From NCBI GenBank assembly GCA_003218375.1, contig QHNH01000016.1:183009-247008 (forward strand): a DNA stretch of 64,000 nucleotides, given 5' to 3'. Origin of the DNA: Verrucomicrobiota bacterium (GTDB taxonomy: Bacteria; Verrucomicrobiota; Verrucomicrobiia; Chthoniobacterales; UBA10450). A program made the translations under genes and the position numbers. Below are positions 5,690 through 40,970 of the stretch, piece by piece; positions within the stretch are counted from its first letter, which is position 1, and each line of letters opens with the position of its first letter. The notes under the pieces were generated by a model. It saw only the letters and a list, made by a program, of their open reading frames with translations, had not been told where the DNA came from and did not search any database.

Positions 5690-5835
5690 CGAGGGGCGGA
5701 GCGAAAGCACCAAGCACCAAGCACCAAGCTCCAGAGAAGCTCCAATAACCAAGCACCAAAGCAACGAGACGTGTGCCCTTTGAAGTTTGGAGCTTGGAGT
5801 TTCTCTGGAGCTTGGAGCTTGGAATTTGGAGCTCG
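5690..5835. repeat. long inverted repeat of CCAAGCACCAAGCTCC type
   Basis: The left arm has CAAGCACCAAGCACCAAGCT and CCAGAGAAGCTCC. The right arm has GGAGTTTCTCTGGAGCTTGG and TTGGAGCTTGGAATTTGGAG. Together they fold into an imperfect long hairpin. ACGTGTGCCC at 5770 is also complementary to GGGCACACGT at 5652. It fills most of the gene-free stretch 5629-5890. Confidence 0.7.
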
Positions 5836-10494: not shown

Positions 10495-10615
10495 GATAGG
10501 GAGCGTGACATCAAGCGGCGGCAGGCGCAACCGGCGCAGAGCGCGGGCCTGTCGGCGCTGTAGTTACGGTCCGGCAGCTGCAGGGTCGCCGTGCTGAGAG
10601 ACGCGTTGGCGCCGG

Positions 10616-10652
10616 AATGACGAATGACGAATAACGAATGACGAAGATGACG
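10616..10652. repeat. GAATGACGA-type short direct repeats
   Basis: Consecutive AATGACGAATGACGAATAA and CGAATGACGAAGATGACGAC form a string of 8-10-base direct repeats in the intergenic space between the divergent glmS and glgC genes. Similar word-like strings occur at other gene boundaries in this window. Confidence 0.7.
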
Positions 10653-10702: not shown

Positions 10703-12046
10703 GTGGAACCGAAAAGCCGCTCCCTGCGAGACCCAGTTTCGGGCGCGGTTCCTCCTCCGGCGCTTCCGCCGGGGACGACCGAGCGAACGCTCGCGATCAT
10801 CATGGGCGGTGGCGCGGGAACGCGATTGTTCCCGCTAACGAAGGACCGGGCGAAGCCGGCGGTGCCGATCGGGGGCAAGTACCGGATCGTCGATATTCCG
10901 ATCAGCAATTGCCTGAACTCCGGGCTGCGCTCGATCTACATCCTGACCCAGTTCAACAGCATGTCGCTTCATCGGCATATCCAGGCGAGCTATAAGTTCG
11001 ACAATTTTTCGCGCAGCTTCGTGGACATTCTCGCCGCGCAGCAAACGCCGGAAGGTTCGCAATGGTACCAGGGCACCGCCGACGCCGTCCGTCAGAACAT
11101 GCGCTACTTCCTCGAGCGGCCGTTCGATTATTACATCATCCTCAGCGGCGATCAGCTTTACCGGATGGATTTTCGGGCGCTCCTCCACCAGCACATTCGT
11201 TCCGGCGCCGATATCACGCTCGCGATCAAGCCGGTCGAGCGCGGTGAGGTGTCGGAATTCGGCATCATGCAGAGCGACGCGAACCGGCGGGTGACGAAGT
11301 TCGTCGAGAAACCGAAGGACGAAGCGGTCTTGAGCGAGTTCCGGATGGGCCCGGAACTTTTGGCGTCCGTCGGCTCGGGGCCGGACGAAGAACTCTATCA
11401 GGCCTCGATGGGCATCTACGTTTTCAACCGCGACGTGCTCGTCGAATGCCTGAACAACGATCTGGCGGACTTCGGCAAACACGTCATCCCGCAGTCGATC
11501 GAGCAACGGCAGGTGAGCGGTTACATTTTCAACGGCTACTGGGAAGACATCGGGACGATCCGCGCTTTTTACGAAGCGAATCTCGATCTGACGGACCTCC
11601 TGCCGCAATACAGTTTCTTCGAGGCCTCTGCGCCGATCTACACGCACCCGCGGTTCTTGCCGGGCAGCAAAATCAACGGCGCGACGTTGCGCCAGGCGAT
11701 CATCGCGGACGGCTGCATCATCTCGGACGCGCACATCGAGCGGTCGGTGATCGGCGTGCGGAGCACAATCGAAAGCGGGGCCACGATCCGGAACAGCATC
11801 GTGATGGGGGCGGATTACTATGAAACGGAACCGACCAGCGAACGCTACCGGCTGCCGCCGATCGGGATTGGGCGGAATTGCGTGATCGACCGGGCGATCA
11901 TCGACAAGAATGCGCGGATCGCGGACGGCGTTGTGATTACGCCGGAAGGAAAACCGCCGGACCTGGACGCGGGAAATTATTTTATCCGCGACGGGATCGT
12001 GGTGGTGCCGAAAAACGCGATTATCCCCGCGGGATTCTGGATCTGA
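10703..12046 (+). CDS. glgC: glucose-1-phosphate adenylyltransferase (ADP-glucose pyrophosphorylase)
   Basis: The enzyme makes ADP-glucose from ATP and glucose-1-phosphate for glycogen synthesis. The product has 447 residues from a GTG start. The nucleotide-binding signature is MGGGAGTRLFPLTKDRAKPA (residues 34-53), followed by GGKYRIVDIPISNCLNSG. Other sites visible are QGTADAVRQN, the sugar-binding FVEKPK and YWEDIGTI. The C-terminal third is a left-handed beta-helix allosteric domain (IERSVIGVRSTIESGATI). The sequence style is closer to plant and cyanobacterial enzymes than to the enterobacterial type. It is divergent from glmS. Confidence 0.96.
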   Translation: MEPKSRSLRDPVSGAVPPPALPPGTTERTLAIIMGGGAGTRLFPLTKDRAKPAVPIGGKYRIVDIPISNCLNSGLRSIYILTQFNSMSLHRHIQASYKFDNFSRSFVDILAAQQTPEGSQWYQGTADAVRQNMRYFLERPFDYYIILSGDQLYRMDFRALLHQHIRSGADITLAIKPVERGEVSEFGIMQSDANRRVTKFVEKPKDEAVLSEFRMGPELLASVGSGPDEELYQASMGIYVFNRDVLVECLNNDLADFGKHVIPQSIEQRQVSGYIFNGYWEDIGTIRAFYEANLDLTDLLPQYSFFEASAPIYTHPRFLPGSKINGATLRQAIIADGCIISDAHIERSVIGVRSTIESGATIRNSIVMGADYYETEPTSERYRLPPIGIGRNCVIDRAIIDKNARIADGVVITPEGKPPDLDAGNYFIRDGIVVVPKNAIIPAGFWI

Positions 12047-12058
12047 ATGTCGAGCGGC

Positions 12059-12274
12059 CTATCGGCGTTGCTGGTTGAGTATGGCCCCCTCGCCTTCACG
12101 CTCCCACTTCTGTTGCTCGTTCCAAGGAAGCGCGGTTTCTTTTTTGTCGTTCGGGTCAGTGATGAACGCCGTGGTTCGTTTGGTGGCGCACGAGCTAAAA
12201 GCAAGCGCGAGCGCGGCGAGCAGGGCCTTTCCCGCGATTCTCAAATGGATCCGACTACGAATTATTGCCAGCAT
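12059..12274 (-). CDS. small putative lipoprotein
   Basis: The protein has 71 residues starting at ATG 12274. A basic stretch and hydrophobic segment (GKALLAALALAFSSC) end in a lipobox-like FSSC at about residue 28. A short polar mature part rich in Lys/Glu/Gln follows. Its start overlaps the 3' end of the coiled-coil gene (12255-13091) by about 20 bases, implying translational coupling. The function is unknown. The longer ORF upstream of this ATG lies inside the neighbouring gene and was not used. Confidence 0.6.
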   Translation of the reverse strand: MLAIIRSRIHLRIAGKALLAALALAFSSCATKRTTAFITDPNDKKETALPWNEQQKWEREGEGAILNQQRR

Positions 12275-15374: not shown

Positions 15375-15454
15375 GCGATTTGGATGGTTGGATTGCGCCC
15401 GGAATGGGAACGCAACCTTAAATCCAAAATCCGAAATCGAAAATCTAAAATGGG

Positions 15455-25123: not shown

Positions 25124-25254
25124 TTTCGAAATCCGAAGCACGAAATCCGAAACAATGACCAAGGAAAAATTTCCAAACGCGGACTCTGCGTTTTTTAAGA
25201 TTCGGATTTTGAATTTGTTTCGAGTTTCGAACTTCGAATTTCGGATTTTCTTCC
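25124..25254. repeat. ATCCGAA/TTCGGAT word-rich intergenic hairpin
   Basis: CGAAATCCGAAGCACGAAAT and CCGAAACAATGACC on the left face TTCGGATTTTGAATTTG and TTCGAACTTCGAATTTCGGA on the right, giving an imperfect long hairpin immediately before parA. The same words occur at 15421-15452 upstream of fba. Confidence 0.65.
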
Positions 25255-31865: not shown

Positions 31866-32006
31866 GTGACATGTGACGAGTGAAATCCTCGTTCCCAAAC
31901 TCTGTTTGGGAACGCAATTGTCTTCAAAACTCCGTTTTGTTTTCTGACTTCTTGTCATCTGCTTGTCACACGTCACACGTCACACGTCACATGTCACTCG
32001 TCACTA
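31866..32006. repeat. hairpin and CACACGTCA-type direct repeats
   Basis: CGTTCCCAAACTCTGTTTGG GAACG (31887-31911) forms a hairpin. A string of CACACGTCACACGTCACACG and TCACATGTCACTCGTCAC (about 31967-32005) runs into the thioesterase start codon, and GTGACATGTGACGAGTG (31867-31883) is its inverted counterpart. Related words occur at 35140-35168 and 54022-54090. Confidence 0.7.
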
Positions 32007-33795: not shown

Positions 33796-34000
33796 AACTC
33801 CTCCCGTTAATTAATTGTTTAAGGGACATAATAAAATACGTCCGGTCGGCAATCAATGGCCGTATCATGCGCCCCGTTTCCGACCCTCTTTCTTCTCTCG
33901 CTTTCGGCATTGGGCGTTGGGCGTTTGCTGCGCTCCCGAGGCGCGCAGCCGCCGTGCGCCAAACGAATCAAAGAAAGAGAATCAAATCCAAGGAACCCAA

Positions 34001-34966
34001 ATGAAAACACTTATCGCACTCCTGACCGCCTGTTGCTGCGCTCTGGCTTTCGCAGCCCAGCCCGTGGAACCGGTCGAGCAGGCCGACGTCACGAAACCAG
34101 CGCAAAAACCGAAGAATGCGCCGAAGCAACAGATCGTGCCGCAACCGCAGCGCACGTTGCCGAACACGAAAGTCCAGAAGCCGCACATCGAGCGCTCGAC
34201 GAATGCCGTCCATGACAACACCCTGCGCAAGAATGGGCCGAAGAAGGAACGGACGGTGCCCGCGGTTCAATCCAACACCCTGAACAACGTCCAGTCGAAG
34301 AAGACCCAAACCAGCAAATCACCCAAGCTCGAGAAAAAACAAACGGCGCCCATTACGAACACAACGACAAACCCGCCCGCCACCACTACGACCGCTCCGA
34401 GCACGACTACGACGGCCCCGACCACTAACGTTCAGCCGAAGAACGTCAAGGTCGACCCGGCGACCGTGAAAAACGTCCAGGCCAAGTACGCGAACTTTAA
34501 AGCGCAACCCAAGACCAACGTCACCAGTGCCCAGTTCAATCCCAATTATCGGATCGCAGCCGCGCAGAATTGGACCGGCCCGCAGTACAACGCTTTCCGG
34601 ACCTACCAGCCTCAGTGGCACGACCAGGGCTGGTGGAGTTCTCATTACACCACCCTCAGCCTCATCGCGGGTGGCTGGTACTTCTGGGACGCCGGCTATT
34701 GGTATCCTGCCTGGGGTTACGATGAAGCCGCCGCCTATTACCCGTACGACGGCCCCATTTACGTCGGCCCGCAGGCGCGCCCGTTCGACCAGGTCGTAGC
34801 CGATGTCCAGGCCATCTTGCAGGAGCAAGGCTATTACAAAGGCGAAGTCGACGGTCTGGTCGGCCCGCTCACTCGCGAAGCGCTCACCGCTTATCAGGCA
34901 GCCGCCGGTCTGCCGCCCACCGCTTCCATCGACGAGCCGACCTTGAACTCACTCGGCCTGAGTTAA
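34001..34966 (+). CDS. secreted peptidoglycan-binding-domain protein
   Basis: The product has 321 residues from ATG 34001 with AAGGAAC upstream; the longer ORF lacks a signal peptide at its start. The signal peptide is KTLIALLTACCCALAFA. A long Lys/Thr/Pro/Asn-rich disordered region spans about 20-185, including a TTTTAPSTTTTAPTT stretch. A Trp/Tyr-rich segment follows (GGWYFWDAGYWYPAWGYDEA). A C-terminal PG_binding_1 domain ends it (about 262-320: VQAILQEQGYYKGEVDGLVG, LTREALTAYQAAAGL). It shares this plan with 55792-56637. It is likely periplasmic and bound to the cell wall. An AT-rich divergent promoter region lies at 33796-34000. Confidence 0.85.
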   Translation: MKTLIALLTACCCALAFAAQPVEPVEQADVTKPAQKPKNAPKQQIVPQPQRTLPNTKVQKPHIERSTNAVHDNTLRKNGPKKERTVPAVQSNTLNNVQSKKTQTSKSPKLEKKQTAPITNTTTNPPATTTTAPSTTTTAPTTNVQPKNVKVDPATVKNVQAKYANFKAQPKTNVTSAQFNPNYRIAAAQNWTGPQYNAFRTYQPQWHDQGWWSSHYTTLSLIAGGWYFWDAGYWYPAWGYDEAAAYYPYDGPIYVGPQARPFDQVVADVQAILQEQGYYKGEVDGLVGPLTREALTAYQAAAGLPPTASIDEPTLNSLGLS

Positions 34967-38921: not shown

Positions 38922-39181
38922 GTGCTGGGCAAGGGAAAATCAGAAGGTCAATCAGCCGGGATTTCTCAGTCGCCAAGTCTCGTGAAACGCGGTGCGATCG
39001 GGACGATACCTCGAAAAAGAAACGGGCTGGAATACGCCGGGCTGGGAATCCGGCGAATAGGCGGTAACGCAGCTAGGGTAGCTGGCATGAGCGCGGGCGC
39101 GCGACTGACCAAAATTATTCCCGCCCGTTCTTCGCTCGTTCGGCTGAAGAATCAGCCGACTCGGATCTGCGCGGGATTGGC

Positions 39182-39811
39182 TTACACCACCATTAGTTTC
39201 GCCGGGTCGCTCCAGGCGCCCATGACGCCTTTGAGGCCACAGGTGCGCACCCGTACCCAGATGACTGTGCCGGGCGTGAAGCCGCCCAGGTTCGCTTTGC
39301 CGCCGCTGAACATGCCGGCCGGTTTCCAATCGCTTTCCGTGTTCGGGTCGCCGGTGTTGGTCTGGACGTCGTTGATGCTGTGTTGACGATCGGGCTGGTA
39401 GCGCGCGATCAGGGTGCCGCTCAGGTCGCCCTGGCGCACCACGAGATTTTGAGGCGCGCCCGGCGGCGTGGTGTCGGGCGTGCGCGCGGTTTCGTAGGAA
39501 GGAAACCCGCTCTGAACGAGAATGGCCGGGTCGCCGTCGGCGATGATGTTAACGTAATTGCCGAGGTTGCCCAGGGCGGTTTCCAGATCGTTCCGGGCCA
39601 CGTTGAACGCGATGATATCGGCCGTGGCTTTGCTGGCTTTCTTGTTCAGCGCGCTTTTGAACGTGTCGATCAAGGTCTGGAACGCGGCCATCGTCACCGG
39701 CGGAGTGGCGAAGGTCGCGGCGTTCGTGGTCGTGTCATCGTGGATTTTTTGGGCGGCCGGGAACAGGTCCGGCCCGGTGTAACCGCTGAAGTCAATGATT
39801 GCTTTAGTCAT
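39182..39811 (-). CDS. FN3-like protein of the verrucomicrobial small-protein type (copy 2)
   Basis: The product has 209 residues from ATG 39811 (MTKAIIDFSGYTGPDLFPAA). Residues 1-115 are helical (ARNDLETALGNLGNYVNIIA, DGDPAILVQSGFPSYETAR). Residues 120-209 are a fibronectin-III-like domain (PGAPQNLVVRQGDLSGTLIA, GTVIWVRVRTCGLKGVMGAW). No signal peptide is seen. The frame stays open 64 codons upstream through the 21-nt array, giving heptad-like peptides, but those codons have no protein character beyond the repeat. It is divergent from a LuxR-type regulator across the array. Compare 1479-2171. Confidence 0.8.
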   Translation of the reverse strand: MTKAIIDFSGYTGPDLFPAAQKIHDDTTTNAATFATPPVTMAAFQTLIDTFKSALNKKASKATADIIAFNVARNDLETALGNLGNYVNIIADGDPAILVQSGFPSYETARTPDTTPPGAPQNLVVRQGDLSGTLIARYQPDRQHSINDVQTNTGDPNTESDWKPAGMFSGGKANLGGFTPGTVIWVRVRTCGLKGVMGAWSDPAKLMVV

Positions 39812-39845
39812 GATTATGAGCGTTCGGGGAAGGGGTTTAGTGGTT

Positions 39846-40223
39846 GGTTGTCGTGAAATCGGGGAAGGTTTTCGGTGAACACCGGGAGCAAACCCGGGAA
39901 ACGAGTACCAGTTTTCGCGAACCTGGTACTTCGGCGCGGAGACATGGAAGGGTTTTCCCGAAACCGGTGCCGGTTTGGCGGAATTGGGTACCGGTTTGGC
40001 CAAATCTGGTACCGGGTTTCCGAAAACCGGCTCAGCTTTTCGAGAAAGGATGACCGGTCTACCGAAAACGAGTACTCAGGTTGCCGCTTGCCGGAAGCGA
40101 CCGCGCGAAAGCTGGAAGCGCCGTGGAAAAGGTAGGCAGCGTTTTCCCGCGAGCCGCGAGCGTTTCGAAGAAAGAAGCGCGCTTTTTGAACCGCTAACGG
40201 AGCCGCGGCCGGAGTTCGCGGAG
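39846..40223. repeat. array of eighteen 21-nt repeats upstream of FN3-like gene (array 2)
   Basis: Units begin at 39846, 39867, 39888, 39909/10, 39930, 39951, 39972, 39993, 40014, 40035, 40056, 40077, 40098, 40119, 40140, 40161, 40182 and 40203, with at most a one-base slip. The clearest unit is GGTTTTCCCGAAACCGGTGC C, and GGTACC or ACCGGT palindromes recur at the unit joints. Units from about 40077 on are more degenerate but keep phase (CGTTTTCCCGCG, CGTTTCGAAGAA, CTTTTTGAACCG). The left end is 35 bases from the FN3-like start codon. Confidence 0.85.
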
Positions 40224-40490
40224 TAATTGTGCTGTCCGAGGGGAGCAGGTTCACAAGGCGGAGTCTGCCAAACGCGCCTCGGCGCCGCTACCCACGAAAG
40301 GAGTAGTCGCCTTGCAAAACGCGGCACCCGCACGTTTCCCCTCGTAAAATCGTTTTTTCGTGCTCGGAAACGGCGCTTTTTTCCTTCGCGAATGTGTTCA
40401 TTCGCGCGGCCGCGCCGGGCGACTCGCGAAGATTGTTGCGGACATTTGACCCGCGCCCCGGTACTTCACTCCGCAACCTCAGAGTTCCCC

Positions 40491-40970
40491 TTGAAGAAAT
40501 CTCGCCCAGAACAGGCTTGCGGAGCGCTCATCGTAGCGCCGCGCGGCCGGATTCGTTTTATTAGCCGGGTAGCTACCCATTATTTAAAGGAACATTTCGG
40601 GCCGCGGCCGGACAGGCATCGTCTCCCGGAGCCGCTCGCTTCCTGGGCCCGGACCACGCCGAACACGCCGTTTTGCCTGTCAAAAAATGGCCGGATTGTT
40701 TTTGTCCATCTTATCGATCGCAGCCGGAAGGGAGCGCAATGTTTTCTCCTGGAAGAACGCGTGATCGAGGAGAGCAACCTCACGCCCCAGGAACTGTTAG
40801 TGCTGTCCTGGGTGAGGAAAGGGAAGTCGACCGAACAAATCGCGGCGATCGTCGGGCGGAAAGTCGGCACGGTGAAGAAACATCTGACCCGGATCTACGA
40901 AAAACTGGGCGTAGAAAACCGCACCGCCGCCGCCTTCTACGCCGACCGCTTCTTCACCGCCGAAGAGTAG
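40491..40970 (+). CDS. LuxR-type HTH regulator
   Basis: The protein has a C-terminal GerE/LuxR helix-turn-helix of about 60 residues (LTPQELLVLSWVRKGKSTEQ, IAAIVGRKVGTVKKHLTRIY, EKLGVENRTAA). About 80 preceding residues (GALIVAPRGRIRFISRVATH YLKEHFG) form a small PAS-like or partner domain seen in similar regulators. The frame is open much further upstream (to 40227), but that part is low-complexity. TTG 40491 is a reasonable start and gives 159 residues; the true start is uncertain. It is divergent from the FN3-like gene, separated by the 21-nt array, so it may bind there. Confidence 0.8.
   Translation: MKKSRPEQACGALIVAPRGRIRFISRVATHYLKEHFGPRPDRHRLPEPLASWARTTPNTPFCLSKNGRIVFVHLIDRSRKGAQCFLLEERVIEESNLTPQELLVLSWVRKGKSTEQIAAIVGRKVGTVKKHLTRIYEKLGVENRTAAAFYADRFFTAEE

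Follow-up and report, generated by a model that had tools for sequence, protein, structure and literature searches.

Tandem DNA arrays with a period of 21 nt, each in a single phase and with a sequence private to its locus, were found ahead of genes of a new helix-bundle protein family. This combination is real and recurrent in the Verrucomicrobiota and Bacteroidota and is, as far as could be found, undescribed: no description of such arrays was met in the literature, with subscription journals mostly outside reach. The array and its downstream gene are best read as one genetic unit. The analysis started from a 64,000-nt stretch of Verrucomicrobiota DNA, herein referred to as the window.

The array of the window and its surroundings

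The array of the window occupies positions 39846-40223 and consists of 18 contiguous 21-bp units in one phase. Identity at lag 21 over this region is 0.473 (0.440 at lag 42 and 0.429 at lag 63), above every value obtained in 1000 dinucleotide-preserving shuffles (mean 0.259, sd 0.024, top value at any lag 0.369). Against a leave-one-out profile, individual matches at P<0.05 were obtained for 14 of the 18 units but not for the other 4; the 4 units preceding 39846 are at background level, and the strongest units lie at 39951-40055. The array is thus confirmed, with the coordinates, period and unit count given in the earlier note, and the period is indeed retained while the letters drift. Of the array region, Tandem Repeats Finder by itself detects only 39966-40015, because the units agree with their consensus at only ~55% of positions. 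Dyad symmetry of the units is imperfect and takes the form TTTC..GAAA (p 0.016, arm covariation z 4.3). The hexamers GGTACC and ACCGGT, previously thought to recur at the unit joints, occur only two and three times, respectively, and are therefore not general.

Both genes expected at the sides of the array are present. The FN3-like gene (209 aa; reverse strand, 39182-39811), recognized from its reading frame, homologues, AlphaFold2 model and Foldseek matches, is separated from the array edge at 39846 by a short leader of 34 bp on the same strand (39812-39845), which ends at the start codon. On the far side, a LuxR-type regulator is encoded on the forward strand at 40227-40970 (Pfam GerE, E 1.5e-14). 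This regulator is a neighbour outside the recurring unit, because no common neighbour family recurs across the array loci. A shared partner gene was likewise rejected, as none recurs among these loci.

Other repeats were also seen in the window. Just 3' of the FN3-like gene, at 39029-39112, lies a segment of ~55-85 bp that is recurrent at many sites in genomes of the genus. A 21-nt periodicity at 34273-34524 falls within a low-complexity reading frame (33815-34966) and probably represents repetitive coding sequence with no relation to the array. Several short stretches of differing sequence are tandemly repeated with a period of 7 nt; they lie at 5705-5833, 10615-10645, 15420-15451, 25218-25248, and 31965-32004, and at 854-1021 of locus L105.

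Recurrence upstream of two protein families

The window protein is predicted to consist of an N-terminal three-helix bundle and a C-terminal fibronectin type III (FN3) domain (AlphaFold2, pLDDT 92.7). Its Foldseek matches in the PDB are FN3 domains (E 1.7e-6), which assigns this fold to the C-terminal half. A paralogue, L005, scores 20.6 bits against Pfam fn3, under the 25-bit cut-off. A second, all-helical family with two bundles was found through locus L034; its model (pLDDT 89) has no good structural match. Neither family has a significant match in Pfam, and the FN3-like proteins have none in NCBIfam or PADLOC. The two-bundle profile aligns to the N-terminal bundle of the FN3-like proteins (hhalign E 5.5e-5, probability 66%), and the two families are distantly related. 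Most of the bundles have a neutral or acidic character (median pI of the two-bundle proteins 5.9), and no DNA-binding fold was found among the PDB matches. Two of the two-bundle proteins with upstream arrays, L162 and L168, carry ~90 additional C-terminal residues, which may form a beta domain.

Arrays were called at a peak of at least 0.47 within 1 kb of the gene. By this threshold, an upstream 21/22-nt array was found at 31 of the 43 FN3-like loci from Verrucomicrobiota and Bacteroidota, and 4 further loci are borderline. About a quarter of the FN3-like loci are without a clear array, and some of those without a called one are degenerate copies. No downstream arrays were found at the 43 loci after discounting L095, where the single scripted count is an artefact: on this short contig the gene coordinate had been mis-set. 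In the two-bundle family, the array is present at 13 of 16 loci. In the 685 kb surrounding the genes, 41 lag-21 peaks were found, and no peak at lags 20-23 in 320 kb of control stretches of the same genomes; arrays away from the family genes were covered by sampling. Paralogues in the genome of the window (L003, L005), homologues in its relatives and homologues in Bacteroidota all have a 21-nt array ahead of the gene. The idea of the earlier note would have been refuted by orthologous FN3-like genes lacking such arrays; this test came out in support of it, most loci carrying one. The accompanying prediction of a gene-specific consensus is borne out, as the consensus differs from locus to locus.

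Several loci depart from this arrangement. At L106, a 14-unit 21-nt array (11921-12214) precedes a reading frame for a secreted protein (12422); the FN3-like gene of this locus is 3.1 kb away and is itself without an array. Such arrays may serve other genes too. At L076 (2757-3132, gene-strand orientation), the array runs straight into the 3'-terminal third of an FN3-like gene, an arrangement that would result from loss of the leader and the bundle. At L077 (G000:C19, 6429-8714), a paralogous pentapeptide / LuxR / FN3-like region has no 21-nt array, and the 3' end of the FN3-like gene is found there in several degenerate, repeated pieces. A diversity-generating retroelement or 5'-truncated copies were considered for these repeated fragments and rejected, no reverse transcriptase being seen.

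With respect to genomic context, the type I modification gene hsdM adjoins 5 of 41 array loci and none of 20 control loci, which is only suggestive of a partnership. At L100, L102, L109, L112, and L114, genes of type I restriction-modification systems lie beside the array and FN3-like gene: HsdM, joined in some cases by HsdS or HsdR. PADLOC models were matched by 219 families near arrays and by 18 in controls, many of them redundant; a location of the array loci in variable or defence-rich regions is suggested. A phage or plasmid element was rejected, since no relative was found in phage records, plasmid records or IMG/VR contigs.

Organization, symmetry and descent of the arrays

Among the 50 arrays of period 21, the number of units ranges from 8 to 20 (median 12). 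Arrays lie 41-605 bp ahead of the start codon. Only the periods 21 and 22 were found; period 22 is limited to L067 and L089, where it is accompanied by a 44-bp higher-order repeat, and two-unit higher-order repeats are present at L067, L089, and L093. Almost every locus has a consensus of its own; even the arrays of the window's own genome (L001, L003, L005, and L076) have unlike consensus sequences by profile comparison. Arrays with near-identical units (L020, L066, and L073) are found alongside decayed ones. Within an array, near and distant units resemble one another almost equally (0.60, declining to 0.58 over a span of eight units). In 35 of 42 arrays the columns differ in their conservation (Fisher 5e-38), as is expected of binding sites and not of neutral decay, which argues against pure neutrality; L032, for example, retains only GARYTC per 21 bp.

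Dyad symmetry of the units exceeds that of column-permuted controls under the Watson-Crick rule (8e-16). This null was checked with three false pairing rules, one mirror and two pseudo-complement, which gave no excess (0.51-0.85), and against the two-bundle arrays, taken as negative controls. Dyads were found in 18 of 33 FN3-like arrays (Fisher 1.5e-18), that is, in only about half of them, and in 1 of 12 two-bundle arrays (Fisher 0.73), a significant difference between the families (Mann-Whitney p 1.2e-4). This restriction to the FN3-like family is the main reason to suspect the gene product or a matched partner as the reader of the array. At dyad pairs, G-T and A-C mismatches are equally frequent (343 and 337), with no G-U bias, and no purine skew was found on the gene strand of the arrays; the constraint therefore seems to act on double-stranded DNA, not RNA.

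Closely related loci indicate how the arrays are inherited. Three copies in genome G339 share a leader of ~300 bp and the gene at 81-84% identity, which ends at the array edge and shortly past the stop codon (~60 bp in the L082/L087 pair). The proteins of the G339 paralogues are closely alike (score ratios 0.71-0.82), yet their arrays are very different. By profile correlation, the arrays of L083 and L087 are still recognisably related (r 0.56), and those of L081 and L083 are not (0.26). In the G374 pair L166/L170, the arrays are homologous unit by unit with no indels, differing by 12.6% compared to 5.7% in the upstream flank. Among 32 FN3-like loci, array and protein similarity are correlated in a Pearson Mantel test (r 0.21, p 0.0005), and not significantly in a rank test (p 0.09); array similarity tracks protein relatedness weakly. 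By the G339, G374 and Mantel comparisons, arrays descend together with their genes yet diverge fast.

Possible function and comparison with known systems

The best explanation, held tentatively, is that the array offers a series of binding sites spaced by two turns of the helix, read most likely by the product of the unit itself or by a matched partner. The case for it rests on the recurrence in two phyla and two families, the upstream position, the absence from control DNA, the uneven columns, the Watson-Crick dyads and their link to the FN3-like family, the signs of a constraint at the DNA level, the nearly flat unit similarity, the period of 21/22, and the weak co-descent. The array would be a double-stranded DNA element with about 8-20 protein-binding sites, with its own recognition sequence at each locus. 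With a site at every second turn of the helix (21, sometimes 22 bp), the bound proteins would share one face of the DNA, where cooperative binding is possible. The reader would most likely be the gene's own product, or else a co-evolving partner. One-bundle FN3-like proteins might read their palindromic units in the manner of dimers, and tandem two-bundle proteins might read non-palindromic units with one chain of two unlike halves. Occupied sites could regulate the promoter of the gene itself or build a local protein-DNA filament. A protein-binding platform phased at two turns, as suggested in the earlier note, is thus kept as the best reading; protein occupancy, the gene product as binder and the regulatory outcome are what we infer.

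The neutral or acidic bundles argue against simple DNA binding and therefore lower confidence in the gene product as reader. The divergent G339 arrays, the non-significant rank Mantel test, the non-dyadic half of the FN3-like arrays and the quarter of FN3-like loci without a clear array also count against this explanation. A stronger proposal is more doubtful: a self-addressed genetic unit, in which a small helix-bundle protein has its own private 21-bp sites, whose symmetry is dictated by how the protein is built, and recognition diverges so fast between copies that each acts only on its own array.

Ordinary cis-regulation is the leading rival to the best explanation, though rather unlikely. 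The array would then be a multi-site operator for transcription factors that are encoded nearby or elsewhere and vary among loci, and the gene product would never touch DNA. The placement of the array between neighbour and gene fits this reading, as do the LuxR-type gene of the window, XRE-type HTH genes at two G286 loci, a reading frame for an XRE-like HTH that at L067 separates the array from the gene, and HTH/GerE matches among the neighbours of array loci. However, no recurring regulator was found among the loci, as many as 8-20 sites are rarely seen in ordinary operators, and array symmetry that follows the protein family is left unexplained. Less probable is functionless satellite-like DNA, formed by tandem amplification followed by point mutation and hitchhiking with the genes. 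Near-identical arrays beside decayed ones, the two-unit higher-order repeats and the excess of array over flank divergence between L166 and L170 are consistent with such an origin, but the uneven columns, the period of 21 (22) bp irrespective of sequence, the lack of indels between L166 and L170, and the recurrence of arrays upstream of two gene families, with none downstream and none in control DNA, speak against it.

Two further readings place the signal in RNA or protein. A repeat RNA resembling type III toxin-antitoxin systems is improbable: tandem, partly palindromic repeats do precede a small gene, in some cases within defence-rich regions, but dyad pairs show no G-U preference, the two-bundle arrays lack dyads, RNA folding z is only -1.2 and -1.9, no Rfam match reaches gathering level, and the predicted fold is a helix bundle with FN3. 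The earlier note had also proposed that the FN3-like frame stays open through the array and yields heptad peptides; the array would then encode either a protein made of heptapeptide repeats or additional N-terminal sequence of the FN3-like protein. One frame is open in most arrays and continues into the gene at L014, L023, and L032, but the three codon positions vary to the same extent (t 0.8), the open frames are scattered over all six frames and differ from array to array, and the period of 22 at two loci is not divisible by three. With no codon-position signal, no preferred frame and a period of 22, coding is therefore excluded, with a negligible probability left to it.

If the best explanation is right, two uncharacterised families in two phyla would possess built-in, locus-specific DNA addresses of constant pitch, a natural system for the rapid divergence of DNA recognition from which orthogonal protein-DNA pairs might also be drawn. 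With another protein as binder, a fixed 21-bp pitch combined with free sequence is still a recurring and directly testable design with no published description found.

Among known systems, multi-site operators, iterons and parS/centromere arrays (RHH, Rep, Par) likewise have tandem or phased short DNA sites near a putatively controlled gene, with helical phasing. In those systems a single sequence is recognised and the DNA-binding protein that belongs to it is known, whereas here the sequence is private to the locus and no DNA-binding protein recurs. CRISPR arrays also contain many short repeats in a row; here, as previously noted, there are no spacers, and contiguous degenerate units keep one phase over 378 bp. 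Type III toxin-antitoxin systems (ToxIN, AbiQ) share locus-specific tandem repeats ahead of a small gene, and their toxin is an endoribonuclease (PMC8860590). In contrast, the arrays described here have degenerate 21/22-bp units without an RNA signature or base-pairing preference (G-T equal to A-C) and accompany a predicted helix bundle with FN3. REP/BIME elements are likewise short, palindromic and extragenic, and REPs have one sequence common to the whole genome (PMC3733652). Instead of one dispersed palindrome, the arrays L001, L003, L005, and L076 of a single genome are all unlike in consensus, each array being private and tied to one gene family.
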